Positions 1-29,262 of a stretch of DNA of 32,557 nt are shown here, in pieces. Source of the DNA: a virus. Each line of letters begins with the position of its first letter. The stretch's first letter is position 1. The stretch spans positions 1-32,557 of the IMG/VR virus record IMGVR_UViG_3300050015_000091. One strand, given 5' to 3'. The translations under genes were made by a program, and so were the position numbers. The notes under the pieces are model-generated. The model saw only the letters and a program-made list of their open reading frames with translations. It made no database searches and had not been told where the DNA came from.

Positions 1-151
1 CAACGCTGGGGACATCACCGCTAGGGACATCACCGCTTGGGACATCACCGCTAGGGACATCAACGCTGGGGACATCAACGCTGGGAACATCAACGCTGGG
101 GACATCACCGCTAGGGACATCACCGCTAGGGACATCAACGCTGGGAACATC
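1..151 (+). repeat. Tandem 15-base coding repeat (left part)
   Basis: About ten tandem 15-base units of the form GACATCACCGCTAGG or GACATCAACGCTGGG lie in frame, each coding a five-residue unit (D/N)-I-(T/N)-A-(G/R/W). The array continues at the right edge (about 32527-32557), where GGGAACATCACCGCTGGT and the next unit appear. The last nine bases of the window equal the first nine. The true copy number is uncertain because such arrays collapse easily in assembly. Confidence 0.9.
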
Positions 152-355
152 CTATATTATGCGCTCTGTAGTGTTTACAACTCAATTAAATGCTTATCTA
201 TAAAAGCCATACGAGAAGTCCATAGTGAACCTATTTGTCTTGACGGTGAACTGACAATTAAAACTGATGAACCAAAAGAAACCATAAAAATAGGCAACCA
301 AACCTATAATAAAGATGAAGTCGAGCAAGCATTAAAGGATGTTAAATCACTATGA
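2..355 (+). CDS. DI-repeat protein, 3' part (split by window edge)
   Basis: This frame is open from base 2 to the TGA at 353-355 and lacks its start, which lies at 32403 on the right edge. It encodes pentapeptide units such as GDITA, RDITA and GDINA, followed by a tail beginning ILYYALCSVYNSIKCLSIKA and containing PICLDGE. I recognise this as a common phage and bacterial family of unknown function with an N-terminal cap, a variable (D/N)I repeat region and a conserved Cys/Leu-Asp-Gly tail. The repeats resemble pentapeptide-repeat or right-handed beta-helix proteins, but the Ala is out of register with the classical A(D/N)LXX pattern. Its function is unknown; DNA mimicry or a structural scaffold are only possibilities. 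The stop overlaps an ATG (ATGA). Confidence 0.8.
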   Translation, partial: NAGDITARDITAWDITARDINAGDINAGNINAGDITARDITARDINAGNILYYALCSVYNSIKCLSIKAIREVHSEPICLDGELTIKTDEPKETIKIGNQTYNKDEVEQALKDVKSL

Positions 356-384
356 CCAACTCACAAACAAAGGAGAGCAAAGTA

Positions 385-549
385 ATGAGTAAGCGAGTAA
401 CATTAAACATTAGGGAAATTGAATATATTGTCAGTGCATTAAAAGATTTACAAAACCCTGGCCTTGTAGATTATGAAGTTGTAAAAACTGGCAGACGAGT
501 TTATCAAGATATAATTGACAAATTAACAGGGTTAGACAAGGGGGAATAA
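385..549 (+). CDS. Small hypothetical protein (54 aa)
   Basis: I chose the ATG at 385 because AAAGGAG lies at a normal distance upstream. The in-frame ATG at 352 overlaps the previous stop and has no ribosome site of its own, and the codons between resemble the untranslated or leader stretch at 32359-32403. The protein starts MSKRVTLNIREIEYIVSALK, predicts as mostly helical, and ends in a charged tail. I do not recognise a family. It lies in a run of very small closely spaced genes typical of phage early regions, so a host-interaction role is possible but not shown. Confidence 0.65.
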   Translation: MSKRVTLNIREIEYIVSALKDLQNPGLVDYEVVKTGRRVYQDIIDKLTGLDKGE

Positions 550-550
550 T

Positions 551-604
551 ATGACCCACTTAGGGTTATTGTGCTTTATGTTTATAAGGAGCAGTTATGA
601 TTAA
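551..604 (+). CDS. Possible very short ORF (17 aa)
   Basis: ATG at 551 follows AAGGGGGAATAAT directly and encodes MTHLGLLCFMFIRSSYD before TAA. It begins right after the stop of the preceding gene. The ribosome site is good but the peptide is too short to judge, and it overlaps the next short ORF. It may serve only for translational coupling. Confidence 0.25.
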   Translation: MTHLGLLCFMFIRSSYD

Positions 605-647
605 CGAACAAACAATAGAAATAGCTTGTGCTATAATAAAACTATAA
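597..647 (+). CDS. Possible very short ORF (16 aa)
   Basis: ATG at 597 follows a strong ATAAGGAG site and encodes MINEQTIEIACAIIKL before TAA. Its 3' end overlaps an extended -10 promoter (629-637). The ribosome site argues for translation, but the length gives no family evidence. It could be a remnant whose 3' part was replaced when the downstream promoter and gene were inserted. Confidence 0.3.
   Translation: MINEQTIEIACAIIKL
629..637 (+). promoter_or_regulatory. Extended -10 promoter TGcTATAAT
   Basis: A consensus TATAAT at 632-637 is preceded by TG at the extended -10 position. No good -35 lies 17 bases upstream (CAAACA at 609-614), as is usual for extended -10 promoters. It is 35 bases upstream of the GTG start at 672. 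The same TGcTATAAT occurs at 4741-4749. Confidence 0.6.
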
Positions 648-671
648 GCTGAATAAGGAGTTACTACCAAA

Positions 672-917
672 GTGAAAATAACAAATTACCGTTTAGAACT
701 AGCATTCTTGATACCAGATGACAAAAAGCTCTCCGTTGATGAAGTCAAAGCGACAGTTGAAAACTCGCTCAAGGCAATCAACAAAGATAGTTTGAAGCAA
801 ATGAAAAAGGGCGCAGTGAGATTTGAAAGTTTGCAAGACCTTGAGGACTATGACCTACAACTTCAAAAACTAAAGCGAGAGTGGAACTCTACGCAGAAAG
901 CTAAAAAAGGAAAATAA
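672..917 (+). CDS. Hypothetical protein (81 aa)
   Basis: The start is GTG at 672, preceded by AAGGAG at 655-660 and by its own extended -10 promoter. The product (MKITNYRLELAFLIPDD...) seems to have a short beta segment followed by amphipathic helices rich in Lys and Glu (residues 20-81). It is highly charged with a basic C-terminus (KAKKGK). No family is recognised. The next start codon follows one base after the stop, so the genes to 1494 are probably one transcription unit. Confidence 0.7.
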   Translation: MKITNYRLELAFLIPDDKKLSVDEVKATVENSLKAINKDSLKQMKKGAVRFESLQDLEDYDLQLQKLKREWNSTQKAKKGK

Positions 918-918
918 A

Positions 919-1083
919 ATGCGTGTGGTGGAAGATTATCAAGACAATGATAGTGGAAAAAAATTATCAATTCCTCACAAATGGGGTAGCAAAAGTTTTG
1001 ACTATAAGAAGCAAGTATTGATACAACGTAAAAAAGCCAGACAGCGCAAATTGGCTGCAAGGCAAAGGACTAGAACACGATGA
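919..1083 (+). CDS. Small basic hypothetical protein (54 aa)
   Basis: This short gene starts at ATG 919 after AAAAAAGGAAAATAAA and ends at TGA 1081-1083, overlapping the next start by ATGA. The product begins MRVVEDYQDNDSGKKLSIPH and has an acidic N-terminus and a very basic C-terminal half (QRKKARQRKLAARQR), suggesting binding to nucleic acid or to acidic partners. Tight coupling to both neighbours supports it as real. No family is recognised. Confidence 0.65.
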   Translation: MRVVEDYQDNDSGKKLSIPHKWGSKSFDYKKQVLIQRKKARQRKLAARQRTRTR

Positions 1084-1268
1084 AATCACAACCAACAATC
1101 ACAACCTCATTATTCACATTGACGATACTGTCATTTGCTATTTGGGTAACAATGACCTATGGCTGGTTTGCATTGGGCTTGTATCTATTCCTATGTGCAG
1201 TTATATCACTGGCGTTTGATGTCGTAAGAATTATGAGGGTAATCAATGATGGAAAATCTGGAAAATAA
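1080..1268 (+). CDS. Small two-helix membrane protein (62 aa)
   Basis: The protein has two predicted membrane segments (about residues 9-28 and 30-50; TSLFTLTILSFAIWVTMTYG, then WFALGLYLFLCAVISLAF) and a short charged C-terminus. It overlaps the upstream gene by four bases (ATGA) and the downstream KGG-motif gene by 23 bases. Small early membrane proteins in phages often act in superinfection exclusion or membrane remodelling, but nothing here proves that. It is not next to the lysin, so a holin role is less likely than for the proteins at 25589-25904. Confidence 0.65.
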   Translation: MKSQPTITTSLFTLTILSFAIWVTMTYGWFALGLYLFLCAVISLAFDVVRIMRVINDGKSGK

Positions 1269-1494
1269 TGAAAGAGATAAACGACTTGGCACAGTCAATC
1301 GTGTCGGTAGGGGTGCGCACAATCGCACTCATGCCCAAAACGTGGCACTTGGTAAAAAAGGTGGCACAACGAAAACCAATAGAACCCAATACAAAGGTTT
1401 CGGTTCAATGGATAGGGACAGACTTAAAGAAATTACTCGCAAAGGCGGCAAAAATCGTTGGCAAACCAAGCCGATTGACGAAACACAAGCTTGA
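1246..1494 (+). CDS. KGG-motif protein (about 82 aa)
   Basis: The product contains two KGG-type segments: a short GKKGGTTK near residue 37 and KGFGSMDRDRLKEITRKGGK in the C-terminal half. The latter closely matches the stress-induced KGG repeat (GFASMD...REIASKGG) seen in small bacterial and phage proteins. This match favours this frame over the overlapping ORF at 1268-1561. The start may be ATG 1246 or 1249, with GAGGG upstream. KGG proteins are small, basic and poorly understood, and some are thought to bind nucleic acid. Very basic composition fits that idea. Confidence 0.65.
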   Translation: MMENLENNERDKRLGTVNRVGRGAHNRTHAQNVALGKKGGTTKTNRTQYKGFGSMDRDRLKEITRKGGKNRWQTKPIDETQA

Positions 1495-1538
1495 TTTTGA
1501 ATATGACAAGACGTTACCAGAAATAAAAAAGGAACTGC

Positions 1539-2021
1539 ATGGTATCACGAAAGATAACTAACCAATTGGACGCTATGAAGTCCGCTGTATGCCCTAAATG
1601 CGACAGCACAAGGCTTTTATATGCACATGGCAAGTTGTCCTGCACCAACTGTGGACACGTGATTGGTGCAACCATGAACAAGTATGGTGCAAAAAAGAGT
1701 ACCTATAATGGCTACAATTATGACAGCAAGTTTGAAAGCCAAGTGGCACAAGATTTGGACTTGAGATTACGTGCTGGCGACATCAAGGAAGTGCAGCGAC
1801 AGGTAAAAATACCACTTGACGCTTACGGCAAACATATCACCAATTATTTCATTGACTTTATGATTACTCGCAGTGATGGCACGCATGAATATATTGAAGC
1901 CAAAGGTATGGAAACAGATGTTTGGAAACTCAAATGGAAAATGTTTGAAGCCAAGATGAACCAACAAGAGCCAGAGGCAGTGTTGACGGTTATCAAACAA
2001 AAACAATGGAAAAACCATTGA
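1539..2021 (+). CDS. Zinc-ribbon plus DUF1064-like putative endonuclease
   Basis: The start at 1539 follows AAAAAAGGAACTGC. Residues 18-38 form a zinc ribbon (CPKC...CTNC; C18, C21, C35, C38). From residue 46 the protein matches the DUF1064 phage family (MNKYGAKKSTYNGYNYDSKF). That family keeps an acidic/PD-(D/E)XK-like core, seen here as FIDFMI and YIEAKG (E-x-K). DUF1064 proteins usually lie among phage replication or recombination genes and are predicted nucleases. The N-terminal zinc ribbon is not part of the usual domain, and an internal ATG at 1674 would give the bare domain. The last codons overlap the -35 of the next promoter. Confidence 0.75.
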   Translation: MVSRKITNQLDAMKSAVCPKCDSTRLLYAHGKLSCTNCGHVIGATMNKYGAKKSTYNGYNYDSKFESQVAQDLDLRLRAGDIKEVQRQVKIPLDAYGKHITNYFIDFMITRSDGTHEYIEAKGMETDVWKLKWKMFEAKMNQQEPEAVLTVIKQKQWKNH

Positions 2022-2046
2022 CAGAACACCTAAAGTTTGCTAGAGT
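2001..2046 (+). promoter_or_regulatory. Promoter with palindromic operator (cassette copy 1)
   Basis: TTGACA (2018-2023), a 17-base spacer ending in TGC, and TAGAGT (2041-2046) form a promoter with an extended -10. The inverted repeat CAATGG-N5-CCATTG (2004-2020) runs into the -35. The 23-base block 2001-2023 differs by one base from 28830-28852, which also ends in a TTGACA with a TAGAAT 17 bases later. It overlaps the 3' end of the DUF1064 gene and drives the genes at 2106 and 2325. Confidence 0.8.
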
Positions 2047-2105
2047 AGTGTTATAGGCAAAACAAAATAAACATAAAAATAGCCTATGGAAAAGAGAACA
2101 GCAAA

Positions 2106-2303
2106 ATGGGTAAAACAATATCAAAATTAGACACAGCAAAAACAAACACAGTCGCAACCGTCAAAGTTATTTTGGCGTTGGCGTTTTTGGTAGCAGCTTT
2201 GAACTTAGGCGGTTACTTGCTATTGAGTGACTTGGCTAAAAACATTTTGGCAGTCATTGTTGGCTTCACTGGCGTTTGGATATTAGTTAGTAACGTGAGA
2301 TAA
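2106..2303 (+). CDS. Small two-helix membrane protein (65 aa)
   Basis: It starts at ATG 2106 after the leader GAGAACAGCAAA, a motif shared with five other genes in the window. A basic N-terminus with Thr/Lys (residues 1-18) precedes two membrane segments (about 19-40 and 44-62). It is co-transcribed with the lysozyme-like protein downstream (21-base gap), so a role in membrane targeting or control of that enzyme, or in superinfection exclusion, is possible. No family is recognised. Confidence 0.65.
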   Translation: MGKTISKLDTAKTNTVATVKVILALAFLVAALNLGGYLLLSDLAKNILAVIVGFTGVWILVSNVR

Positions 2304-2324
2304 TCAGAACTGCTGAAAAGCATT

Positions 2325-2777
2325 ATGAAATTGATTATTACATCTATGATAACAGTAGTGATTTGGGGGTTGATAGCAATACCGACCCCAAAACCACGCA
2401 TTGAGGGAAGCCCAGCGATTGCACCAATTCCTTTTATAAGCGCACCTAAGCCAATCAAGTTAGCTGATGTAGTTGCTATTGCACCTTTGGCAACAAACAC
2501 GCAGCAGAGCGCACAGGCGCAAAGCACAGCGCAAATTAGCGTTAGCGAAGCAGCAGCCAAAGCATTTATCTACCAACATGAAAGCGGAAATGACACCACC
2601 AGCGTCAACAAGAACAGCGGGGCTTGTGGACTGGGGCAAGCGTTACCATGCAGCAAAATGCCTTGCTCAATGACTGATTATGGCTGTCAAGACAGCTTTT
2701 TCACTGAGTATATGCAGGGTCGGTATGGCAGTTGGATAAATGCTTATAATTTTTGGCAAAGTCATTGTTGGTGGTAG
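2325..2777 (+). CDS. Membrane-anchored APF/SLT-like muralytic protein
   Basis: Residues 1-20 form a signal peptide or membrane anchor, residues 20-75 a Pro/Ala/Gln-rich linker, and residues 76-150 a lysozyme-like domain. The domain has FIYQHESGND (likely catalytic Glu86), the signature GACGLGQALPCSKMPC, and a C-terminal RYGSWINAYNFWQSHCWW like that of aggregation-promoting-factor and SLT-type domains. Several cysteines (C101, C109, C114, C121 and C148) suggest disulfides outside the cytoplasm. It lies far from the tail and lysis genes under its own promoter, so it may act in exclusion, wall remodelling or lysis support. The domain call is by motif recall only. Confidence 0.75.
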   Translation: MKLIITSMITVVIWGLIAIPTPKPRIEGSPAIAPIPFISAPKPIKLADVVAIAPLATNTQQSAQAQSTAQISVSEAAAKAFIYQHESGNDTTSVNKNSGACGLGQALPCSKMPCSMTDYGCQDSFFTEYMQGRYGSWINAYNFWQSHCWW

Positions 2778-2796
2778 TAACCACGAGTGATATACT
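2768..2796 (+). promoter_or_regulatory. Promoter TTGGTG-N17-TATACT with TGa
   Basis: TTGGTG at 2768-2773 and TATACT at 2791-2796 are 17 bases apart, and TGA immediately precedes the -10 (extended -10). The -35 overlaps the end of the muralytic gene. It would drive the gene at 2823 and probably the ParB/PAPS-reductase module behind it. Confidence 0.65.
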
Positions 2797-2822
2797 ATAA
2801 GCAAGAAAGGAACAGCAACTCT

Positions 2823-3089
2823 ATGAGGTTATTTGATAAACTGAAAGAACAGACTAATGCGATAATTCCAAGTCAGTGTTATTTGCACTTTGACACGCAT
2901 GGTTTGATAATACGGTTTCAAGTTGAACGTGACATATCACCACCAATTTTGATTGATGAAACTATGGCACGAGCGATAAGTGAATACCTAACAGAGTATC
3001 TGACTGTTTTTGATGATGTGAAAAAGCATGGTTGGAAAAATAGCGTGAAAGGAAAAGACAATGGAAGTCAAACAAATACCACTAAGTAA
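2823..3089 (+). CDS. Hypothetical protein (88 aa)
   Basis: I chose ATG 2823 because GAAAGGA precedes it and because an upstream GTG at 2787 lies inside the promoter. The protein starts MRLFDKLKEQTNAIIPSQCY, appears to have a beta-rich middle (HFDTHGLIIRFQVERDI) and a C-terminal helix, and ends in a polar tail. It overlaps the ParB-like gene by 29 bases, so the two are translationally coupled. It may belong to the same module, but no family is recognised. Confidence 0.6.
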   Translation: MRLFDKLKEQTNAIIPSQCYLHFDTHGLIIRFQVERDISPPILIDETMARAISEYLTEYLTVFDDVKKHGWKNSVKGKDNGSQTNTTK

Positions 3090-3648
3090 GATTAAACCAG
3101 CAGAATATAACCCAAGAACTTTGACAAAAGAGGAGTTCGCTGGACTAAAAACTAGCATTGAAACATTTGGGCAAGTTGAAAATCTGGTAGTCAATAAAGA
3201 TGGCACGCTGATTAGTGGACATCAAAGATTTGAAGTTATGAAGTCATTGGGCTGGAAAACAGCAGCAGCGCACCAAGTTGACCTCAATAAAAGGCAAGAG
3301 AAAAAGCTCAATATCACCATGAATAACCAAGCAATCGCTGGTGCATGGGATAGCATAAAATTATCAGAGATTTTGGAAGAACTGAAAAGCGATGACGATT
3401 ATGAAAGCCTACGCTTGAATAAATTAGAACCATTGGACTTATCTGGGCTTAATCAGACCAGTCTTGATGACGGTGAAGCACCTAAAAACCAAGAGTATGA
3501 AACTGGTGGTGGTATCAAGCAATATACAATCGTATTTGACACTATTGACCAACAAGATATTTTCATGGAGTGGGTGCAAGGCTTGAGAGCAGCATACCCA
3601 GACGGTGAAACAATCGCTGAACGCATAATCTTGGCAATTCAACCATGA
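3061..3648 (+). CDS. ParB/Srx-fold nuclease-like protein
   Basis: Residues 1-100 form a ParB N-terminal-like domain: an opening strand with PLSKIKPAEYNPR, then LVVNKDGTLISGHQRFEVMK, with the signature I-S-G-H-x-R (residues 51-56) that in this fold binds and hydrolyses nucleotides. The C-terminal part has an acidic linker and a short beta/alpha segment (IKQYTIVFDTIDQQDIFMEW). Such free-standing ParB-like proteins in phages often pair with methyltransferases or PAPS-reductase-like enzymes. Here the next gene overlaps by four bases and is exactly such an enzyme. It is not a partition protein by context, because there is no ParA and no plasmid-like module. Confidence 0.85.
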   Translation: MEVKQIPLSKIKPAEYNPRTLTKEEFAGLKTSIETFGQVENLVVNKDGTLISGHQRFEVMKSLGWKTAAAHQVDLNKRQEKKLNITMNNQAIAGAWDSIKLSEILEELKSDDDYESLRLNKLEPLDLSGLNQTSLDDGEAPKNQEYETGGGIKQYTIVFDTIDQQDIFMEWVQGLRAAYPDGETIAERIILAIQP

Positions 3649-4736
3649 ATATAAAGCATTTCACTGACACTGATGTACTGACGGCTGCAAAAGACCGTAT
3701 CAAAGAGGTTATAAACACCTTTGACAAGTGCCATGTGATGTTTAGTGGTGGCAAAGATAGCCTTGTGTTGCTGCATTTGACACAGGAAGTCTATGACGAA
3801 ATGGGTATCAAAGAAAAAGTCAACGTGATATTCAGAGATGAGGAAATAATACCCCAAATTGTTATTGATTTTGTCATAAAACATTGGAAATCTGGCAAAT
3901 ATAACTTTAGGTACTACGCAACGCAGCTCAAAAGCGAGAAGTTTATCATGGGCAAAAAGGTGGCGTATATTCAATGGGACGAAAACCGCAAATGGATACG
4001 TGAAAAGCCAGAGGGCGCACTTGAGTTCCCAGGTTTAGTTTTAGACCAGTACAATAGTGACTTTAAGATAACAGAGGGTGATAAGGGGCTGATTGCCTTA
4101 CTGACTGGACAAAGAGCCGATGAAAGTTTGGTACGTCTTGGCAGTGTTTTGAACAAATTAAACAAACCCTTTATATCTAAAAGTGGCAGCGATAATTGTA
4201 GAATAATTAAACCATTGTACGATTGGAACGAGAGCGATATTTTCAAGTATATGCATGATAAAAGTATTGAATATTGCCCAATTTACGACCAAGAGTTATT
4301 CAATGGCTCTAATCTACGTGTTTCAACACCACTACACGCTGAAACATCAAAGCGTATTTATCAATTGAAAACACAAGACCCACAATTCTACAATCAGATA
4401 ATAAGTGTATTCCCCGAAATGGAAACTCAAGCACGATATTACAAGGACTTTGCCAATGGGCGCAAAGACATCATGGAGTTATACCCTCGTGGTTGGAATG
4501 GCGTAATTAAATACATCGATGATAACTTAGAGGGCAAAACAAGGGCGCTGGCACTCAACCGCGTGCAAACTGCTATCAAGTTGCGCGCGAACAAGATTGA
4601 GCAGTACCCACAGTCGCTTGGTGGTTACCCAATACGCTACGTGTTCCAAATGGTTATCAATGGTGCATACAAGCGTCAAATACTACCGAAAAATAAAGCC
4701 TCAAAATTAGATTTGGAATATGAAAATATCGTCTAG
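3645..4736 (+). CDS. PAPS-reductase/IbrA-like PP-loop ATPase
   Basis: The N-terminus has the PP-loop SGGKDS (residues 34-39) of N-type ATP pyrophosphatases, followed by VNVIFRDEEI and, downstream, LLTGQRADES, KPLYDWNESDIFKYMHD, YCPIYDQELFNG and LRVSTPLHAETSKR. This set fits the phage PAPS-reductase family and IbrA/DUF3440 proteins rather than metabolic CysH. DndC, which works in DNA phosphorothioation, shares the same core. It likely adenylates a substrate, possibly for sulfur or nucleotide transfer, but the substrate is unknown. It overlaps the ParB-like gene, and a second ParB-like protein of IbrB type follows at 6135. The 363 residues look full length. Confidence 0.85.
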   Translation: MNIKHFTDTDVLTAAKDRIKEVINTFDKCHVMFSGGKDSLVLLHLTQEVYDEMGIKEKVNVIFRDEEIIPQIVIDFVIKHWKSGKYNFRYYATQLKSEKFIMGKKVAYIQWDENRKWIREKPEGALEFPGLVLDQYNSDFKITEGDKGLIALLTGQRADESLVRLGSVLNKLNKPFISKSGSDNCRIIKPLYDWNESDIFKYMHDKSIEYCPIYDQELFNGSNLRVSTPLHAETSKRIYQLKTQDPQFYNQIISVFPEMETQARYYKDFANGRKDIMELYPRGWNGVIKYIDDNLEGKTRALALNRVQTAIKLRANKIEQYPQSLGGYPIRYVFQMVINGAYKRQILPKNKASKLDLEYENIV

Positions 4737-4740
4737 GTTA

Positions 4741-4749
4741 TGCTATAAT
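4741..4749 (+). promoter_or_regulatory. Extended -10 promoter TGcTATAAT
   Basis: A perfect TATAAT (4744-4749) with TG at the extended position lies directly after the stop of the PAPS-reductase-like gene. The -35 is poor (TGAAAA at 4721-4726). It serves the AT-rich HNH-like gene at 4773 through an AAGGAGAACAGC leader (4757-4768). Confidence 0.7.
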
Positions 4750-4772
4750 AACAGGTAAGGAGAACAGCAAAA

Positions 4773-5201
4773 ATGAAAAAACTAGGGCTTGAAGCACATA
4801 GCAGAAACAACAAATTATATGTTTGTTGGCAAAATATGATTAGGCGTTGCTATGATAATAAAACAAATCACTTTGAAAATTATGGTGGTAGAGGGATTAT
4901 AGTCTGTGATGATTGGCGCAATTTTGATAATTTTTATAATGATATGCATATTAGTTACAAAATTGGTTTACCACTTGATAGAAAAGACAATAATGGTAAT
5001 TATTCAAAACATAATTGTCATTGGGTTACTCAAAAACATCAATTAAATAATACGAGTAGAAATAGATTTATAACCTATGGTGGAAAAACTTTGACATTAT
5101 CACAATGGGCAGAAGAAATTGGCGTAAAGCGTAGCACTTTTGCTCAACGATTTTATGTTTATAAGTGGAGTTTGAATAGAATATTTGGGGGTATTGTGTA
5201 A
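4773..5201 (+). CDS. HNH-like, homing-endonuclease-type protein
   Basis: The protein carries the pattern YGGRGIIVCDDWRNFDNFYN (residues 37-56), LDRKDNNGNY (68-77) and NCHWVTQKHQLNN (81-93). These are typical of a family of phage HNH-like endonucleases, followed by a C-terminal DNA-binding segment (GGKTLTLSQWAEEIGVKRST) resembling NUMOD or HTH tails of homing enzymes. The gene is visibly more AT-rich than its neighbours and has its own promoter and ribosome site. It sits between otherwise overlapping genes, which suggests a free-standing homing gene inserted into the module. It also overlaps the next start (TAATG). Nuclease activity is inferred from the family. Confidence 0.75.
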   Translation: MKKLGLEAHSRNNKLYVCWQNMIRRCYDNKTNHFENYGGRGIIVCDDWRNFDNFYNDMHISYKIGLPLDRKDNNGNYSKHNCHWVTQKHQLNNTSRNRFITYGGKTLTLSQWAEEIGVKRSTFAQRFYVYKWSLNRIFGGIV

Positions 5202-5581
5202 TGGCAACTGGTATTTACAATGGCTTCAAAGGGGACTTACGAGATAAAGTTGGACAACTGCAAGAGTTGTTGATACGTGATGGCTATATGCCACCGCATG
5301 ATAAATGCTATTTGTGCAACCAAACACAAGGGCGCATACTCTATCATCTTGAGGACTACACGAAAGTCTTGGACAGCTCAATGCCTATGTGTTTTATGTG
5401 TCATATGATGTTGCACTGTTGCATAAAAAGACGACCAGATTTGTGGGAAGCTTATCAAAAAGAGGTATGCAATGGCTATCAATATCTATTACAGGGTTAC
5501 GAAGTGCAGCGATTATTTGATGAACTTGACAAAGGTAACTACCATTTGGAAAAAATAAACAATGCGAGGTTATTTGTATGA
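5201..5581 (+). CDS. HNH/zinc-finger-like protein (126 aa)
   Basis: Two Cys pairs (C36/C39 and C64/C67) surround H49 and are followed by H68 and H72 (CYLC, YHLEDY, CFMCHMMLH). This matches small phage and bacterial proteins annotated as HNH-type or zinc-binding, where the His-Glu-Asp-Tyr and C-x-x-C-H segments form a treble-clef-like site. The C-terminal half appears helical. It overlaps its neighbours at both ends (TAATG before, ATGA after), so it is an integral part of the ParB/PAPS-reductase/methyltransferase operon. It could be the nuclease arm of this module, or it could be a small DNA-binding protein. Confidence 0.65.
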   Translation: MATGIYNGFKGDLRDKVGQLQELLIRDGYMPPHDKCYLCNQTQGRILYHLEDYTKVLDSSMPMCFMCHMMLHCCIKRRPDLWEAYQKEVCNGYQYLLQGYEVQRLFDELDKGNYHLEKINNARLFV

Positions 5582-6135
5582 GATTTAATGAACATCATGA
5601 CGTAATAATGGCTGGTGGTTATCCAAAAATACATGACAAAATCAAGTCAATCATCAGACCAATGGATATAAAGGGCAAAGTTGTCTTTGATGTTGGTGCT
5701 TGCACTGGCTCACTTGGACTGTGGGCTGCCGCACAGGGCGCAAAGGCTGTTTTGATAAATGATAGTAACCAAGAATACTTGGATAGAGCCAAATTGTACG
5801 CTATGCAGCACGCAATCAAGAACAACTTTGACATTGATAAAATGATATTCAACCTTGCCAAAGTGGACGGCTTTTGGAAATGCCCAATTGATATTCAAAC
5901 TGTAATCGCTAGACGCTTTGTTTATTTGCTACGTGATGAGGGCATACGAACTAACTTTGTCTATCAACTCAAACAGAACGGCTGTAAGGTGGTGTATTTA
6001 CAGGGGTTAGTACGTGTCAAAAATCATGTTGAGCCATTGTGGAATGTTGACCTTGAGGCGCAATCATTCATAGACGCAGGGTATAAAGTGACATACAATA
6101 ATGGTAATGACCTCATAAGATTGGAGTTGCGATAA
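5578..6135 (+). CDS. Class I SAM-dependent methyltransferase-like protein
   Basis: Residues 33-72 hold the SAM-binding core: GKVVFDVGACTGSLGLWAA (motif I) and AKAVLINDSNQEYLDRA (an acidic end of the second strand). The N-terminus (HHDVIMAGGYPKIHDKIKSI) resembles substrate-lid segments of small-molecule or RNA methyltransferases. No (D/N)PP(Y/F) motif is visible, so a classical N6-adenine or N4-cytosine DNA methyltransferase is unlikely, and the substrate is unknown. The 185 residues make a compact domain. It sits inside the IbrA/ParB module and overlaps both neighbours, so it probably acts in the same pathway. Confidence 0.75.
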   Translation: MRFNEHHDVIMAGGYPKIHDKIKSIIRPMDIKGKVVFDVGACTGSLGLWAAAQGAKAVLINDSNQEYLDRAKLYAMQHAIKNNFDIDKMIFNLAKVDGFWKCPIDIQTVIARRFVYLLRDEGIRTNFVYQLKQNGCKVVYLQGLVRVKNHVEPLWNVDLEAQSFIDAGYKVTYNNGNDLIRLELR

Positions 6136-6662
6136 TGAAGCAACCGATAAATAGCGTTGACTGGCTAGACGCAAAAGCATTGACCGCCAATGACTACAAT
6201 CCAAATGTGGTGCTTGACCAAGAGTTGCGCCTATTGAAGTTTAGTCTATTACGAACTGGTTGGCTGCAGCCGATACTTATTACCAAGAACATGGAAATCA
6301 TTGACGGTTTTCACAGGTGGTGGCTCACACAGAACGATGAGGCAATCAAAAACATGACCGATGGGCTTGTGCCTTGCGTAGTGCTTGACCTAGATGAACC
6401 ACAGCGCATGATGTTGACTATTCGTATCAATCGAGCCAAAGGCAACCATGTTAGTTTCAAAATGCATGAGATTATATCAAAGTTGTATAATGAAATGGCA
6501 GTACCACAGGACGTAATTGCAAAGGAAATTGGCGCAGACGCACACGAAATAAACCTACTGCTTCAAGAGGGTGTATTTGCAGCCAAAAATATCAAAGAGC
6601 ATAAATACAGCAAAGCATGGATACCAGTCAAGAAAGTTGAAAAAGACAATGGCAAAAACTAA
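6135..6662 (+). CDS. IbrB-like ParB-domain protein
   Basis: This second ParB-like protein shows YNPNVVLDQELRLLKFSLLR, WLQPILITKNMEIIDGFHRW (D-G-F-H-R in place of S-G-H-x-R, residues 57-61), then a helical region with a likely HTH (VPQDVIAKEIGADAHEINLL). The YNPN / IDGFHRW form is what I associate with IbrB proteins, which occur with IbrA-type PAPS-reductase-like proteins. It overlaps the small terminase start by 14 bases, so the module is coupled to packaging genes. It could guide the module to DNA or take part in packaging. The enzymatic role is not established. Confidence 0.8.
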   Translation: MKQPINSVDWLDAKALTANDYNPNVVLDQELRLLKFSLLRTGWLQPILITKNMEIIDGFHRWWLTQNDEAIKNMTDGLVPCVVLDLDEPQRMMLTIRINRAKGNHVSFKMHEIISKLYNEMAVPQDVIAKEIGADAHEINLLLQEGVFAAKNIKEHKYSKAWIPVKKVEKDNGKN

Positions 6663-7167
6663 AAAAAGTCAAGACGCAACCAAAGCCTCAAAAGTCACAG
6701 GCGATGAGTTGATTAGGTTCGTACCCACAAAGGAAATCAATGACCAATTTGGTAGACCAAAAGTTATTAGCCTAGAAGTGTTGAAAGACTTGAAATATGC
6801 TTTTCTAATTGGTTGCACAAATCGTGAAGCAGCATTATACGCAGGGATTAGTGAACAAACCTATTACAATTTTGTGAATGGGCTAGACGTTGAATTAAAT
6901 GGTGACTTTTTGGGGCTAGTTGAGGCATGGAAAAATGATATGATATTGGCTGCTCGTCAAACTTTACGCAGAGCAACATCGACACCAGAACACGCAAAGT
7001 GGTTATTGGAACGTAGGCGCAAAGATGAGTTCGCACCTCGTACTCAACATGAAATAAAAGAGGTTAGCGACTTTGACAGTCTAAGCGATGAAGAATTGGA
7101 AAAGATAGCAAATGCAGGACATACAGCAAATCAAGGCGCAGATAGAACTAGCGAAACGCAGAAGTAG
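6649..7167 (+). CDS. terS: Terminase small subunit
   Basis: I chose ATG 6649 (MAKTKKSQDATKASK), because earlier in-frame codons lie inside the preceding gene. A central helix-turn-helix (NREAALYAGISEQTYYNFVN, about residues 58-77), further helices, and a charged C-terminus ending in SDEELEKIANAG fit TerS. The protein recognises the packaging site on concatemeric DNA and loads TerL. It overlaps TerL by 56 bases and the IbrB-like gene by 14 bases. No strong ribosome site is visible, so translation may depend on coupling. Confidence 0.8.
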   Translation: MAKTKKSQDATKASKVTGDELIRFVPTKEINDQFGRPKVISLEVLKDLKYAFLIGCTNREAALYAGISEQTYYNFVNGLDVELNGDFLGLVEAWKNDMILAARQTLRRATSTPEHAKWLLERRRKDEFAPRTQHEIKEVSDFDSLSDEELEKIANAGHTANQGADRTSETQK

Positions 7168-8500
7168 AAACCCCATAGGTGGCTTCACGTGGTTCGTGTA
7201 TAACGTGTTCAGCGCAAGTTTCGAGTGCTTTGTTGGCGGTGACTATATTGATGATGTCTGTAGTGGCATGGAAGCGCACGACTGGACTATGGACGTTACA
7301 GGGCGTGATATGTTCAAATCAACACGCCTATATGCCCAAGTGATGTATGACATTTTCACTGCTGAAACAGACGTTGAGGGACATTATTTTTCATATATTT
7401 CAACGCTGTCACGCTATCATCTAGCCAAAGTGAAACAGATGATTAGTCGTAACCCATTCTATAAGGGCATGAAAGACTTGAACACGCAGTCAGATAGTAT
7501 TATTGACTACTGGAATGGCAAAGCACGTGTCAGTGTTACGCCAGAGGGCTTGCTATCATTCAAACGTGGTATTCACGCAGACCGTATCTATATTGATGAC
7601 CCCTTGAAAGACCCAGAGAACAAACTTGCGCCTGTGACTATTCATCGTATCAACCGCATTATAACAACCGAAGTCTATCCAATGGTAAACAAAGGCGGCA
7701 AATGCCGTATTGTTGGCACGCCACAAACATACGATGACTTTTTCTTTGATGAGCAACTGCAAACCAAGTTCAAGACACGTATTCGTGACAGCATTGTTGA
7801 TGAAGCCAACAAAATCAGTCTATGGCCAGAATGGAAAACCTTTGCTGAACTCATGACAATACGTGAAATTATTGGTGAAAAGACGTTCAACCAAGAATAT
7901 CGTGCCAAACCAGCCTACACTGAGGACAGTTTTATCACACGCAAATCATTACAGAAGTTAGTAGACCCAGATTTGATAAACCAACGTGAATATGATGGTG
8001 ACAATGACGTTGTAGCAGGGTATGATATAGGCAAACACAAGCACCCAGCGCACCTTGCCGTATTTGAACGGTGGAAAGATGAACAACGTGGTGTCTATAT
8101 GTACAAAGAGTTATTATCACAGTGGTTTGACAATTGGGACTATGAAGCCCAAGTCAATCATTTAATTGAAATAATCATGTTGTTCAATATAAGCATTTTG
8201 AGGTATGATAATACCAGAGGCGAGTTTGAGGGTTTTGACGAACAAGGAAAACTACCCAAACAAATGAAACCTGTAATCTTTGGACTAAGGAGTAAGAACG
8301 CAATGGCAGCCAGTTTTGATAGCATAGTCACAGGCGAACGTGCAAGTTTCATCAATGACAAACGTCAAATTGACCAAATCTTAGCTGTCACAAGTGACTT
8401 ACAGGCATTTGAAAGCGCAGAGGGGCATGGCGATAGCTTCTGGTCAGTGGCTATGGCTCTAACTGAAGAAAAAGAAAAAGTTTATAGAGTAAGGACTTAA
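7112..8500 (+). CDS. terL: Terminase large subunit
   Basis: This is the packaging motor and headful or site nuclease. A degenerate Walker A (GRDMFKST, residues 64-71), Walker B (RIYIDDP, 158-164), coupling motif GTPQ (202-205), and the RNase H-like nuclease triad (AGYDIG D305, LRYDN D366, GHGDSFW D441) are in the expected order. Its 462 residues fit a normal size. The overlap with TerS and a three-base-class spacing to the portal gene are standard. The gene starts at ATG 7112; no other in-frame ATG occurs before residue 53. Confidence 0.95.
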   Translation: MQDIQQIKAQIELAKRRSRNPIGGFTWFVYNVFSASFECFVGGDYIDDVCSGMEAHDWTMDVTGRDMFKSTRLYAQVMYDIFTAETDVEGHYFSYISTLSRYHLAKVKQMISRNPFYKGMKDLNTQSDSIIDYWNGKARVSVTPEGLLSFKRGIHADRIYIDDPLKDPENKLAPVTIHRINRIITTEVYPMVNKGGKCRIVGTPQTYDDFFFDEQLQTKFKTRIRDSIVDEANKISLWPEWKTFAELMTIREIIGEKTFNQEYRAKPAYTEDSFITRKSLQKLVDPDLINQREYDGDNDVVAGYDIGKHKHPAHLAVFERWKDEQRGVYMYKELLSQWFDNWDYEAQVNHLIEIIMLFNISILRYDNTRGEFEGFDEQGKLPKQMKPVIFGLRSKNAMAASFDSIVTGERASFINDKRQIDQILAVTSDLQAFESAEGHGDSFWSVAMALTEEKEKVYRVRT

Positions 8501-8502
8501 CT

Positions 8503-10647
8503 ATGGCAAACAAAGTATTTCAATCAATCCAAATTGCATTACAAGGTGGCATATCATCGACCAAAAAAGAGTTTATACCGACATTGGCTTCAATGGACAC
8601 ATTCTTTGGCGTTGGACTTGGTAGCCGTATTAAGACCTACAAATTAAAACAAGAACAAGTCAATGCCAATATAGGTTGGGTATTCGCTGCAAACAGTGCA
8701 ATATCTGAGGCTTGTGCTTCTGTGCCATTGCATTTGTATCAATTGAAGTCAGATGGTGACCGAGAGGAAATCATGACACATGATATTTTGGACTTATTAG
8801 ACACACCAAATGCGTCACATACTGGCGAACAGTTTAGGCAATTGCATTTTACATACATGAACCTTACTGGTGAGAGTTACTTGCTAAAGATGATGGGCAG
8901 TAAGCCACTTGAGGATAATAAAAAGCTACCATTGGCATTGCATATTATGCCAAGCCACCATGTTGACTTCATATTAGGTAAAGACTATTGGACTAGCGTT
9001 GTCAAACTTGATAATGTTGAGTATCCAATCAAAGCAGTCATTCGTGACATCAACCCAGACCCAAACAACCCATACAAAGGGCGTTCAATCATATCTGCTA
9101 GTGCTGCAACCATTGATACTGATGACCAAATGAAAGAGTGGAATAGGCGTTTCTTTGCCAACAGCGCACGCCCTAGCGTCACCATTGAGATACCAGACAC
9201 AATGGAAGATAAGGCATACAATCGCTATCAACAACAACTGAACGACGCTGCAACAGGCACAGAAGCAGCATTTAAGCCATTGATACTTGAGGGCGGTGCA
9301 AAAGCTTCACCTTATATGATGAGCCAACAAGATTTGGACTTCTTGGAAAGCCGTAAGTTTAGCAAAGATGAAATACTTGCCATGTTCAGACTATCACCAG
9401 CCATGCTTGGTATGACTGAAAATGTCAATCGCTCAAACGCTGAAAGTGCTGAATATATCTTTGCCAAATACGTTGTATTGCCACGAGTAAGACAGTTCGT
9501 GCAAACATTGAATGCAACATTAGTGAAGCCATTTGACGCAACATTAGTTTTAGACTTTGATAACCCTGTACCAGATGACGTTCAAGCAAAGCGTGAAGAC
9601 GCTGTTGCTGGCATTGACAAGTGGCTAACAATCAATGAAACACGTGCATTGTATGACTACGAAGCATTGCCAGAGGGCGGTGAAGAACTGTATCGCCCAT
9701 TGAGCGAAGTACCTTTGTCTATGTTGGGCAGTATCAAACCAACTGCTGGAACATCTGACGCTACTGATAATGGTGACGGCACTGCAAACGCTGATGAACC
9801 AGCCAAAGCCCTTGATTTGGGTAAAAAAAAAGACGATTTGCCAGAAGTAGACGCAGTGAAACTATACGGAGAGCGCAAAGCACTTCTATATAATCGTTAC
9901 GCTGCACAATATGAGAGCAAGTTCATGAAAGTCATGCGATTTGAGTTCATAAAGCAGGAAAAGACTGTGTTACAAGCCATTATTGACCGCAAACTTGGCA
10001 AAGCATTCAAGAAAAAGGGAATTGTTGATGACCTTATCAGTTGGCAAGCAGCAAACGCTCAAATGAAAAAAGCCACACAGCCATTATTGGCACTGATTGT
10101 TGGTGAAACTGGCAAACTGGCAATGGGTGAAGTATCCGATACGATAGACTTTGACCCATTCCAAAGCAAAGTAACTGGCTTCTATGATGAACGCAGCACT
10201 GCAATTGCAAAAGATGTCAACGCTGAAACTGAAAAACAACTCAAGGCAACATTGACCGAGGGCATTAGCCAAGGTGAAACAACAACTCAGCTATCCACAC
10301 GTGTTCGTGATGTGTTTGGCAATGCCAGCACTATGAGGGCAGACCGAATTGCACGCAGTGAAGTTGCAAGGGCGCAAGGCTTCGCAGATATTAGCGCATG
10401 GACGCAATCTGGCGTTGTATCTGGCAAGCAATGGTACACAGCCGAGGATACAACTGTATGTGAGTTTTGTGCTTCAATGGACGGTATTAAAATAGACCTT
10501 GAGCAAAACTTCTTTGACAAGGGCGATGAAATGTCCTCCACCAGTGAGAGTGGCAAGGATATGACAATGACATTGGGTTATGAGGATATTGAACACCCAC
10601 CTTTGCATAATAATTGCCGTTGTGTATTGATACCAATTACTGGATAA
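8503..10647 (+). CDS. Portal protein fused to MuF-like head domain
   Basis: Residues about 40-410 form an HK97-type portal (VNANIGWVFAANSAISEACASV, then ...ILAMFRLSPAMLGMTENVNRSNAES). Residues about 470-714 form an SPP1 gp7/Mu gpF-like domain with RADRIARSEVARAQG (near 612-626), a CxxC at 652-655, and HPPLHNNCRCVL at the end. The fusion puts the portal vertex and the minor head protein, which usually enters the capsid, in one 714-residue chain. Such fusions are known in phages of Gram-positive hosts. An acidic linker (near 420-450) joins the two parts. Confidence 0.92.
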   Translation: MANKVFQSIQIALQGGISSTKKEFIPTLASMDTFFGVGLGSRIKTYKLKQEQVNANIGWVFAANSAISEACASVPLHLYQLKSDGDREEIMTHDILDLLDTPNASHTGEQFRQLHFTYMNLTGESYLLKMMGSKPLEDNKKLPLALHIMPSHHVDFILGKDYWTSVVKLDNVEYPIKAVIRDINPDPNNPYKGRSIISASAATIDTDDQMKEWNRRFFANSARPSVTIEIPDTMEDKAYNRYQQQLNDAATGTEAAFKPLILEGGAKASPYMMSQQDLDFLESRKFSKDEILAMFRLSPAMLGMTENVNRSNAESAEYIFAKYVVLPRVRQFVQTLNATLVKPFDATLVLDFDNPVPDDVQAKREDAVAGIDKWLTINETRALYDYEALPEGGEELYRPLSEVPLSMLGSIKPTAGTSDATDNGDGTANADEPAKALDLGKKKDDLPEVDAVKLYGERKALLYNRYAAQYESKFMKVMRFEFIKQEKTVLQAIIDRKLGKAFKKKGIVDDLISWQAANAQMKKATQPLLALIVGETGKLAMGEVSDTIDFDPFQSKVTGFYDERSTAIAKDVNAETEKQLKATLTEGISQGETTTQLSTRVRDVFGNASTMRADRIARSEVARAQGFADISAWTQSGVVSGKQWYTAEDTTVCEFCASMDGIKIDLEQNFFDKGDEMSSTSESGKDMTMTLGYEDIEHPPLHNNCRCVLIPITG

Positions 10648-10650
10648 TGG

Positions 10651-10659
10651 TGGTATATT
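10651..10659 (+). promoter_or_regulatory. Possible extended -10 promoter TGgTATATT
   Basis: TGG followed by TATATT lies directly after the portal stop. TTGATA at 10627-10632 is too far (21-base spacer) to be a normal -35. If active it would boost the protease, scaffold and capsid genes. Confidence 0.4.
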
Positions 10660-10678
10660 GAATACAAGGAGTAGCACT

Positions 10679-11701
10679 ATGCGAAAAGTAACAAAACTAT
10701 TTATCTCAAAAGCTCAATCTATTGATGAGAAAGCCATGACAGCTAAGTTCAAAATTAGCGATGGCAATGTAGACCGAATGGGCGAAATTGTTGACCAAGA
10801 GAGTTGGGACTTTGCTAATTTCTTGCAAAACCCACTATTGCTTTGGGGACATGACCCTAGCCAGCCAAAGAATGTACTTGGACAGATTACTGCACTTGAG
10901 TATGACCCAAAAGAGAACGCTACAATCGCAACTGCTCAATTCGACACAGATATTAACGACAACGCTGCATTGATATTCAACCAAGTTGCACGTGGCACGC
11001 TACGTTGCACATCAGTTGGCTTTATACCACATGAGGAAGCTGTTGAAAATGATATACCAACACTGAAAAACTGTGAACTCTTGGAAGTTTCAGTTGTACC
11101 TATTCCAGCGAACCCACGAGCAATTGCATTAGCATTTTCAGAGGGTACGATAAATAAAAAGGACGCTTCATTCTTAATAGAGAGCATGGAACGTGAAATA
11201 AAACTATTGTCAAAAGAATTAAATAATGGTACAAAGGAGTTAGTTATGAGTAAAGTAGCAAAATCAATCAACGCAATAAAAAACAAGGCAGCAAGCACTG
11301 ACCTTAGTGACGCAGATACAAAGTTTTTGACCGATATGCTTACCGCAATCAATGAATGTGACACCATGTGTGATACTATGTGTGAAAAAATGGACGCAGT
11401 TGTCAAAAGCCTAGCAGATTTCTTGGGTGTTGAAGACCCAGACGCTGACGCTGGCGAAGATGATGGCGAGGGCGATGGTGCAGACGCAGGTGACGGTGAA
11501 CCAATGCCACCAGCAAAAAGTTTGAAATCAACAAAGCAAAAAGCTAACGACGGCAGTGATGACCAGTCGGGTGCTGAAAGCGAAGATGATGGTGCAGATG
11601 AGGCAGAGGAAGTATCGGAAGATACTGAATTGACCCCAGAGCAGGAAAAAGAGTTTGAGGCTGAACTTGCCAAAGAACTAGCAGAGTTACAGACAAAATA
11701 A
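10679..11701 (+). CDS. Prohead protease with scaffold-like C-terminus
   Basis: I chose ATG 10679 because AAGGAG (10666-10671) precedes it. Residues 1-160 form a U35/S78 prohead protease: DGNVDRMGEIVDQ, LLLWGHDPS (catalytic His58), TSVGF (Ser112) and LLEVSVVPIPANP. The C-terminal half is helical and then strongly acidic (from about residue 240, with many D/E/G), resembling a scaffold or delta domain removed during maturation. A second strong start at 11246 would make this part separately. The protease cleaves scaffold and capsid N-termini in the prohead. Confidence 0.92.
   Translation: MRKVTKLFISKAQSIDEKAMTAKFKISDGNVDRMGEIVDQESWDFANFLQNPLLLWGHDPSQPKNVLGQITALEYDPKENATIATAQFDTDINDNAALIFNQVARGTLRCTSVGFIPHEEAVENDIPTLKNCELLEVSVVPIPANPRAIALAFSEGTINKKDASFLIESMEREIKLLSKELNNGTKELVMSKVAKSINAIKNKAASTDLSDADTKFLTDMLTAINECDTMCDTMCEKMDAVVKSLADFLGVEDPDADAGEDDGEGDGADAGDGEPMPPAKSLKSTKQKANDGSDDQSGAESEDDGADEAEEVSEDTELTPEQEKEFEAELAKELAELQTK
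11246..11701 (+). CDS. Nested scaffolding protein (internal start)
   Basis: AAAGGAG at 11233-11239 stands six bases before an in-frame ATG at 11246 inside the protease gene. It would give a separate 151-residue protein (MSKVAKSINAIKNKAA...) with helices, a CDTMCDTMCEKM segment and an acidic C-terminus. This copies the lambda C/Nu3 arrangement, in which a scaffold is translated in excess from an internal start of the protease gene. The internal ribosome site is at least as good as those of most genes here. Its role is inferred from that arrangement and from its place before the capsid gene. Confidence 0.7.
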   Translation: MSKVAKSINAIKNKAASTDLSDADTKFLTDMLTAINECDTMCDTMCEKMDAVVKSLADFLGVEDPDADAGEDDGEGDGADAGDGEPMPPAKSLKSTKQKANDGSDDQSGAESEDDGADEAEEVSEDTELTPEQEKEFEAELAKELAELQTK

Positions 11702-12848: not shown

Positions 12849-12871
12849 TTTAAGAAAGGCAAGGTATAGTT

Positions 12872-26822: not shown

Positions 26823-26845
26823 GCTATCAATCTATAAAAATACTA

Positions 26846-26874
26846 TTGCAAAACAATTGTTTTATCTTTATAAT
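26846..26874 (+). promoter_or_regulatory. Early promoter with palindromic operator in the spacer
   Basis: TTGCAA (26846-26851), 17-base spacer, TATAAT (26869-26874). The spacer region contains the 14-base perfect palindrome AAAACAATTGTTTT (26850-26863), well placed to bind a dimeric repressor. It drives the early operon from 26915 through the AGGAGAACAGC leader. Confidence 0.85.
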
Positions 26875-27379: not shown

Positions 27380-27601
27380 ATGGCAGATGATAAGTTGATG
27401 AAAGAAGCGGAACAGGGGTATTGGTATATCGTTGTCCGTAAATACCTTGAACACGTTGAAGATTGGCGATACCTTGATGAAGCAACTATTGACTTTTTGA
27501 TAGGCACGCACAATCAAGATTACATAACAAATGAAATACTCTATCCAGTTTTGAAATGGCGAGAGTTAGAAAGCGAGAACGATAATGGCAGCAACAATTA
27601 A
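27380..27601 (+). CDS. Early hypothetical protein (73 aa)
   Basis: The start follows GAGGAGTTGTAA at the end of the previous gene. The product (MADDKLMKEAEQGYWYIVVR...) looks helical and acidic with several aromatic residues. It overlaps the ribbon-helix-helix gene by 17 bases. No family is recognised. Confidence 0.6.
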   Translation: MADDKLMKEAEQGYWYIVVRKYLEHVEDWRYLDEATIDFLIGTHNQDYITNEILYPVLKWRELESENDNGSNN

Positions 27602-27746
27602 AACGGTACAATTACCAGTGAAAGAGTGGACTATTTTAAAAGCTTTGGCGGTCAATGAAAACCGAACAATCGCCTCTTACTTGCGTAATTTGATTTATGC
27701 ACAGGCAAAGAAAAATAGCATTGCTATCACTGACATTAAAGGCTAA
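27585..27746 (+). CDS. Ribbon-helix-helix (Arc/CopG-like) regulator, 53 aa
   Basis: A short gene starting at ATG 27585 inside the end of the previous gene. The product has a strand IKTVQLPVKEWTILKALAVN followed by ENRTIASYLRNLIYAQAKKN: one strand and two helices, with the alternating strand and the helix N-cap pattern of RHH DNA-binding proteins. Those work as dimers on short palindromes or repeats. Candidate targets are the direct repeats at 27770 and 27818 or the palindrome in the early promoter. It is a good candidate for the early-operon repressor. Confidence 0.65.
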   Translation: MAATIKTVQLPVKEWTILKALAVNENRTIASYLRNLIYAQAKKNSIAITDIKG

Positions 27747-27898: not shown

Positions 27899-28600
27899 AT
27901 GATAATCAGAAACAAACCGTCAACAAACTTTACGATACTTCGTAATGCCGTATTGAATGATGAGAAATTAAGCCTAAAAGCGAAAGGTCTTTGGGCTTTT
28001 TTGATGTCAAAGCCAGACGGTTGGACGACATCTGTGCATGGACTAATGGCGCAAGTCAAAGACGGTGAAGCGTCAATCAGAACAGCATTGAAAGAACTTG
28101 AAGCAGCGCACCTTTATAGAAAGACTAGGGTGAATGATAAAAAGGGCTTATTGGTATGGCAAGACTTCGTATATGATAAACCATTCGTGGGAAATCCAGT
28201 TATGGATAATCCAGTAGTGGAAAATCGCACACAAGTAAATACTAATAAAGTAAAAACTGAAATAGTAAGTAATTCTACTAACGTAGAATTGGCTACGCCA
28301 AATGAGTTAGAAGTTTTTGGTAAACCAGAAATCAATGAGTTATTTGAATACTGGCTGGAAAAGACTGGCATACCAATCGCTGGCAACGTGCAACGCAATC
28401 GCTACGCCTGTAAAAACCTGCTAAAGAAGTATGAGTTAGTAGGCGTGAAAAAGTTGATAGAGGGCGTGGCATTGGCACAGACTGACAAATATGCACCAAG
28501 AATATGTGACTTTGCACAACTGCAATCAAAGTTATCTGACTTGCTGGTGTGGGGTAAAAAGAAATCAATAGGCGATAAAAAGGGAGTAATCAAAGTATGA
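27899..28600 (+). CDS. Winged-helix replication initiator-like protein
   Basis: The N-terminal domain (residues 1-95) has NFTILRNAVLNDEKLSLKAK, then LWAFLMSKPDGWTTSVHGLM and ASIRTALKELEAAHLYRKTR. This is the winged-helix pattern seen at the start of phage replisome-organiser and DnaD-like proteins. A polar linker (96-145) and a helical C-terminal domain (146-225) follow. It likely binds the origin and recruits host helicase, since no phage helicase is present. Repeats and hairpins upstream (27770-27895) fit an origin and self-regulation. Confidence 0.75.
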   Translation: MIIRNKPSTNFTILRNAVLNDEKLSLKAKGLWAFLMSKPDGWTTSVHGLMAQVKDGEASIRTALKELEAAHLYRKTRVNDKKGLLVWQDFVYDKPFVGNPVMDNPVVENRTQVNTNKVKTEIVSNSTNVELATPNELEVFGKPEINELFEYWLEKTGIPIAGNVQRNRYACKNLLKKYELVGVKKLIEGVALAQTDKYAPRICDFAQLQSKLSDLLVWGKKKSIGDKKGVIKV

Positions 28601-28860
28601 GTATGAAATATCAACTGACTGACTATCAAGGCAATTCAATCACGATACCAGATGACAAAGCTGCAAAAATTGCGGACATCGCTGGCTTGATTGAGGTTGA
28701 AGTCAATGGGCAAAAACATTATGTGAACCCAAGCAACATTGCGAGTATCAAGCCGATACGTGACGGTGGCTACAAATCGCCAAAAGAACTTGGTATGCCC
28801 GACTTGGGCGTTGACTATTCTACAACAAAAAACAATGGTAAAACCATTGACAACGCCTAA
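28597..28860 (+). CDS. Early hypothetical protein (87 aa)
   Basis: ATG 28597 overlaps the stop of the initiator gene (ATGA) after AAGGGAG. The N-terminal half looks like a small beta domain (MKYQLTDYQGNSITIPDDKA, VEVNGQKHYVNPSNIASIKP) similar to small phage proteins of unknown role. The C-terminus is polar and its last codons carry the operator/-35 block of the next promoter. No firm family. Confidence 0.6.
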   Translation: MSMKYQLTDYQGNSITIPDDKAAKIADIAGLIEVEVNGQKHYVNPSNIASIKPIRDGGYKSPKELGMPDLGVDYSTTKNNGKTIDNA

Positions 28861-28875
28861 GAATAAGCCTAGAAT
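28830..28875 (+). promoter_or_regulatory. Promoter with palindromic operator (cassette copy 2)
   Basis: TTGACA (28847-28852), 17-base spacer, TAGAAT (28870-28875). The inverted repeat CAATGGT-AAA-ACCATTG (28833-28849) runs into the -35. The block 28830-28852 differs from 2001-2023 by one base in 23. It drives the genes from 28912 through the AGGAGAACAGC leader. Confidence 0.85.
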
Positions 28876-28911
28876 AAAGGTATAAGCTAAACATAACAAA
28901 GGAGAACAGCA

Positions 28912-29262
28912 ATGGCAACCAAAGGGACAAAATACTACAATCTACAAACTAAACTAGAACAGTCACTAAAGACAGTTATGCTTGACAACGATTGTAGCCT
29001 ATTACAAGCACGTGGAATTATCAATGACGTACTTGGTGACGCAGTTGACACAATGCGAGTGGAATTGGGCGGTTTGGAATGCCCTAGATGTGGTGAAATG
29101 GAACTTGACCCTATTGAAGTACGCAACGCATTAAGCCGTAGAGATAATGAAACCGGTTTGCAAATCTTGAAAGCTGCACACTATGGGCTAGAGGATAGCA
29201 ACTTCCACAGTGAAGCAGCAATGGTTGAGTGTTTGGCTGATAACCTTGAGAGGGTTGGCTAA
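28912..29262 (+). CDS. Early hypothetical protein with CPRC motif (116 aa)
   Basis: Starts after AAAGGAGAACAGC under its own promoter. N-terminal helices (YYNLQTKLEQSLKTVMLDND...) are followed by a single CPRCGEMEL (residues 58-66), then more helices. One Cys pair alone could bind zinc in a dimer. No family is recognised. It begins a set of four small overlapping genes. Confidence 0.6.
   Translation: MATKGTKYYNLQTKLEQSLKTVMLDNDCSLLQARGIINDVLGDAVDTMRVELGGLECPRCGEMELDPIEVRNALSRRDNETGLQILKAAHYGLEDSNFHSEAAMVECLADNLERVG

Follow-up and report, generated by a model that had tools for sequence, protein, structure and literature searches.

The DNA analysed here (the window, 32,557 bases of a virus record) contains two distant copies of a short operator-like block, each placed immediately upstream of, and partly inside, a predicted promoter. 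The first promoter, P1, precedes the lysis/late genes (2.1 kb onward), and the second, P2, the replication/recombination genes (28.9 kb onward). The relevant features are listed below, all on the plus strand, together with their counterparts in a related phage species (the relative) described further on.

1539..2021, + strand: DUF1064 / Holliday-junction-resolvase-like gene, whose 3' end holds the P1 block
2001..2023, + strand: P1 operator-like block, a palindrome CAATGG-AAAAA-CCATTG, ending in the -35 hexamer TTGACA; the same 23 bases are found in the relative
2018..2023, + strand: P1 -35 hexamer, TTGACA
2041..2046, + strand: P1 -10 hexamer, TAGAGT, after a 17-bp spacer (TAGTAT in the relative, at equal spacing)
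2052..2063, + strand: leader element TATAGGCAAAAC, about the predicted P1 transcript start
2106..2303, + strand: first gene of the predicted P1 transcript, encoding a small membrane protein, a holin candidate that shares 60% identity with its counterpart in the relative
2325..2777, + strand: transglycosylase-like lysis gene, with packaging and structural genes next
28597..28860, + strand: gene for an 87-aa protein, with the P2 block in its 3' end but in a different frame
28830..28852, + strand: P2 operator-like block, CAATGG-TAAAA-CCATTGACA (CAATTG-AAAAA-CCATTGACA in the relative)
28847..28852, + strand: P2 -35 hexamer, TTGACA
28870..28875, + strand: P2 -10 hexamer, TAGAAT, after a 17-bp spacer (TACGAT in the relative)
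28880..28892, + strand: leader element GTATAAGCTAAAC of the predicted P2 transcript
28912..29262, + strand: first gene 3' of P2, with Gam-like, YqaJ and NinB/Orf genes further on

The two blocks, AAACAATGGAAAAACCATTGACA at 2001-2023 and AAACAATGGTAAAACCATTGACA at 28830-28852, differ at only one of 23 bases; both are closed by TTGACA, with the -10 hexamer exactly 17 bases later and, 5 bases past it, TATAGGC at P1 and TATAAGC at P2. When sigma-70-type promoters are defined by a TTGACA-like and a TATAAT-like hexamer 16-18 bp apart, both sites qualify, with 10 of 12 hexamer bases matched at P1 and 11 of 12 at P2. Apart from a tandem repeat at the contig ends, this is the sole pair of 23-mers in the window that lie at least 100 bp apart and differ by no more than one mismatch, and no such pair occurred in any of 100 dinucleotide-preserving shuffles. 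The near-identity of the two promoter-linked blocks, to which a sequence-only reading had first drawn attention, is thereby confirmed, and the presence of a symmetric site at more than one predicted promoter of the window exceeds chance. The same reading had held that the copies differ in coding context, and this is indeed the case: at P1 the block encodes QWKNH-stop, the end of the DUF1064 protein, and at P2 it overlaps the 87-aa gene in a different frame. Recoding of the TGA stop at P1 was considered and rejected, as TGA terminates 15 of the 58 genes counted.

The half-sites of the palindrome CAATGG-N5-CCATTG are 11 bp, that is one helical turn, apart. With the -10 hexamer set at -12 to -7, TTGACA occupies -35 to -30 and the palindrome extends from -49 to -33, its centre at about -41, so that it overlaps the -35 element. 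A site centred near -41 can suit a repressor competing with polymerase or a class II activator.

Terminase searches of IMG/VR recovered five contigs (L122-L126), all representing one species, with 99.9-100% identity wherever they were compared; our comparison thus comprises two phage species, the one in the window and one relative, whose terminases are 79% identical and whose DNA is about 70% identical. The longest record of the relative (G001; 17,245 bases) runs from the tail end via P2 and P1 to the terminase. Both copies of the block are present in it, at the orthologous two places, in agreement with the earlier expectation that the block should precede the equivalent genes in related phages. 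At P1 the relative's copy again forms the end of the DUF1064 gene, though the DUF1064 protein is only 33% identical, and the exact match here (25 nt) is the longest between the two genomes, exceeding any in the terminase gene. At P2 the copy likewise precedes the recombination genes, with no sense-strand gene over it, and protein coding therefore cannot explain the second copy. The site is thus kept at orthologous promoters independently of coding, as far as one relative species can tell, which supports the proposal of selection at the DNA level, on an operator together with its promoter.

The sequence-only reading had gone further and suggested a mobile regulatory cassette, and a recent duplicate produced by gene conversion would be a variant of the same idea. 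Two near-identical distant copies in different coding contexts are what such an origin would leave behind. However, the positions of the two copies are shared by both species, which speaks against a recent duplication and against a mobile cassette; outside some 25 bp and the -10 hexamer the copies are not similar, and an IMG/VR scan for AACAATKGNAAAACCATTGACA found it only in the relative's species (two copies in each of two contigs spanning both sites). A mobile or freshly duplicated element is thus scarcely credible.

Another way to account for the block is to assume that it acts as RNA or as an insulator, its minus strand halting antisense transcription at the promoters. A terminator scan did pick up, at both sites, a weak intrinsic-terminator-like hairpin on the minus strand (CAATGGTTTTTCCATTG followed by TTTTT), the plus-strand hairpin has a folding energy of -6 to -6.9 kcal/mol, and the upstream A-run is retained at all four sites (P1 and P2 of both species). 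Yet the hairpin has only a short, weak stem, and the left arm of the relative's P2 copy, CAATTG against CCATTG, introduces one palindrome mismatch that is uncompensated in the hairpin. In addition, the recognised genes all point rightward, leaving no obvious leftward transcription to stop, and the exact link to the -35 hexamer would go unexplained. We consider this role very improbable.

Loose pattern scans of IMG/VR allowing any 5-base spacer returned matches that mostly do not combine an A-rich spacer with a promoter, and these were rejected. Two of the loose-scan matches, in contigs L142 and L143, have the AAAAA spacer in common, and of the two only L143 is plausible as a promoter: CAATCGAAAAACCATTGACA-17-TAAAAT, on the minus strand at 3051-3093, stands upstream of a gene in an unrelated phage contig of 53% GC and may represent either a convergent promoter or a distant regulon. 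One exact pattern scanned against a genome collection of 84,980 species, from which the host species may be missing, did not reveal the motif with a promoter; matches in Lutibacter and in a Methanoperedens MAG were discarded, there being no -10 hexamer behind either. Searches with terminase and RHH profiles added no further species. The GenBank phage collection contains no close phage, with no match for the DNA (bases 1-20000) or the terminase, and its best portal match is Geobacillus phage GBK2, at 28.6% identity.

It is also conceivable that there is no operator at all and that the block belongs to a strong constitutive promoter with an A-tract UP element and an extended -35, CCATTGACA, the palindrome being incidental. 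The A-rich stretch of the block, at about -52 to -39, falls where UP elements act, the TTGACA is perfect and its spacing is 17, and the unrelated L143 site could be a convergent instance of this promoter design. Such a promoter would, however, leave unexplained the conserved CAATKG and CCA with their 11-bp spacing, and equally strong promoters designated P4 (at 26695 in the window and 6845 in the relative) lack the block in both species. We therefore regard an operator-free promoter as distinctly unlikely, and the interpretation of the block as operator plus promoter as well supported by the comparison of the two genomes.

A possible clue to a protein that may bind the block comes from a third promoter, P3, and from the operon it is predicted to transcribe:

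26840..26862, + strand: P3 operator-like site of sequence CTATTG-N5-CAATTG; its half-sites are spaced by 11 bp, and it sits 11 bp further downstream in its promoter than the P1/P2 sites do
26846..26874, + strand: P3 promoter of the RHH operon, TTGCAA-17-TATAAT
27585..27746, + strand: gene for the candidate regulator, an RHH-like protein of 53 aa that has a 53% identical counterpart in the relative

A PWM derived from P1 and P2 of the two species (four sites in all) was scanned over both genomes. The P1 and P2 sites themselves score 35-36.5 bits, and no other position exceeds 9 bits in the window or 12.9 bits in the relative. The P3 site of the window, with 8.0 bits, ranks fifth among 32535 plus-strand positions, and that of the relative, with 12.9 bits, third among 17223, both ranks coming from a post hoc test in which the -35 itself contributes to the score. 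The window's half-sites are poor, with two mismatches, and the relative's site, CCATTG-N5-CCATTG, is a direct repeat, again 11 bp apart; in both species the site is displaced downstream by exactly 11 bp relative to P1 and P2. These similarities are suggestive only, and P3 may thus carry weaker, related half-sites of the P1/P2 operator.

Between the lysin and P2, no protein other than the 53-aa RHH-like one was detected in both phages. Its N-terminal predicted recognition strand, IKTVQLP, is identical in the two species, and in an RHH protein the N-terminal strand is the part reading DNA. The relative's protein matches RHH_7 with 20.1 bits, below the Pfam cut-off of 27, and the window's protein matches no RHH profile. 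The best PDB match of an alignment profile is a weak one (E 0.003) to 2K1O, which is HP0564, an RHH protein (PMC6269979); a chain named pArc is among the weak profile matches as well, with E 0.37. An RHH fold would show an N-terminal strand and then two helices, in a dimer; an AlphaFold monomer based on 2 sequences gives one unbroken helix with a mean pLDDT of 70, an uninformative, low-confidence model too weak for a structure search. Given the half-sites at P3 of its own operon and its status as the only protein between lysin and P2 common to both phages, it is plausible that this protein binds the block.

We are thus inclined, with moderate confidence, to view P1 and P2 as operator-promoters of a single phage regulon, with the phage's own 53-aa RHH-like protein as the most likely regulator, the identity of the latter being a reasoned guess. 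The block might instead serve a host regulator or another phage protein, for example the 81-aa product of the gene at 672-917. Its geometry and conservation would fit any regulator, and the gene at 672-917 is 77% conserved, better than the RHH gene. Against this stand the related half-sites at P3 of the RHH operon in both species and, as concerns a host regulator, the failure of the genome-collection scan described above to find the motif with a promoter. A different regulator is accordingly possible, albeit unlikely.

If the regulator is indeed the RHH-like protein, it would be produced early from P3 and would bind CAATGG-N5-CCATTG over the -35 of P1 and P2, controlling the two together, and P3 more weakly. 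It would thereby time, from P2, the replication/recombination operon at 28.9-32.5 kb (and, should the genome be circular, on as far as 2.0 kb) and, from P1, the lysis, packaging and structural/late genes from 2.1 kb onward. At P3 the half-sites, displaced downstream by one turn, would fall within the promoter itself, a position that suits autorepression. Repression appears more likely than activation also at P1 and P2, because a perfect TTGACA at a 17-bp spacer should fire unaided; the imperfect -10 hexamers of both promoters nevertheless leave room for activation. A more daring scheme would have the 53-aa protein use two registers one helical turn apart, with class II activation at the replication and late promoters, where the site is centred near -41, and self-repression at its own promoter, near -30, so that one protein would provide an early-to-late switch that needs no dedicated late sigma factor or antiterminator. 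We deem this scheme rather doubtful. The majority of RHH proteins act as repressors; AmrZ shows that a member of the class can do both, and in 2012 it and Helicobacter pylori NikR were the only two listed as characterised dual activator/repressors (PMC3325190). If the register shift is true, the phage would offer a minimal system for studying how the position of RHH half-sites sets the sign of control.

Small RHH proteins acting on several promoters have precedents. SvtR of the Sulfolobus virus SIRV1 represses its own promoter and binds the viral genome at three more positions, most strongly at a structural (late) gene, which it also represses. The sequences it binds are imperfect inverted repeats, the main one located about 80 nt upstream of TATA/BRE (PMC5569661). 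The present phage resembles this in having a small virus-encoded protein, RHH-like in its case, that is proposed to act on its own and late promoters; SvtR, in contrast, uses archaeal transcription machinery and its main site is not over a -35. In the case of Omega (ParB) of the plasmid pSM19035, repeats in direct or inverted orientation overlap several promoters and coordinate operons including its own, the sites comprising seven to ten contiguous 7-bp repeats and serving as a centromere too (PMC9499535). The proposed control of several promoters, including its own, through repeats in either orientation is shared with Omega, whereas each phage site comprises a pair of half-sites spaced by 11 bp, and no gene for ParA was recognised in the window. 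We count the phage system as a member of neither the SvtR nor the Omega type. The Arc repressor of phage P22 is a 53-aa protein of the RHH class that acts on the immI ant promoter region. Arc and our candidate are both 53-aa phage proteins; the predicted targets of the latter are a replication and a late promoter. Operators and stoperators of Cluster A mycobacteriophages likewise represent one short repeated site for one repressor, and they are asymmetric, numerous and distributed genome-wide (PMC9283540), unlike the two (perhaps three) near-symmetric sites seen here only at promoters. For an uncultivated phage with no close isolate, a regulon is thus predicted from sequence alone that comprises one operator, three promoters and a candidate regulator of 53 aa, and P1, P2 and P3 together with the regulator form a set small enough for laboratory testing.

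The element AGAACAGC, which had been taken as part of the cassette, turned out to be something more general, since it stands ahead of six genes in the window, those starting at 2106, 4773, 16135, 26915, 28912 and 29916. The leader AGGAGAACAGC, with its GAACAGC core, occurs correspondingly at 2096, 4762, 16125, 26905, 28904 and 29906, and its counterpart in the relative is AAAGGAACAGC. It is a recurrent ribosome-binding leader separate from the operator. Cluster K mycobacteriophages have Start Associated Sequences, a recurrent leader with a Shine-Dalgarno core found just before a subset of gene starts (PMC3203893); the two are alike in kind and differ in sequence, and the likeness concerns the leader, not the operator. 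Another recurrent block, CTATAAGCTAAAA, is found at 642, 2795, 28880 and 29867 in the window and, in gene sense, at 7379, 8469 and 13072 in G001. Its best matches are all on the plus strand shortly before gene starts, and at 29867 and at the relative's 8469 no clear -10 hexamer precedes it.

Several further details of the two genomes deserve mention. At 26695-26826 (about 94-180 in the relative's contig L124), a strong operator-less promoter is followed by a short stretch and a terminator-like hairpin, possibly specifying a small RNA, for which there is no Rfam match; a search for Rfam families and tRNAs found none. In the interval separating the RHH gene from the replication-initiator gene, a hairpin (CAGCCAC-loop-GTGGCTG) has a copy of TGAACGGACTAAAC on either side (27760-27840) and may be an origin or a terminator. 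In the relative's contig L135, AACCATTGACT at about 1221, right after the RHH gene stop and beside a 10-N gap, is a possible further half-site, and a pentapeptide-like repeat gene (1385-1798) adjoins the RHH gene. Finally, the contig ends of the window (1-150 and 32403-32557) both fall within a single short tandem repeat that encodes a repeat protein, where the contig probably broke, or else the contig is circular.
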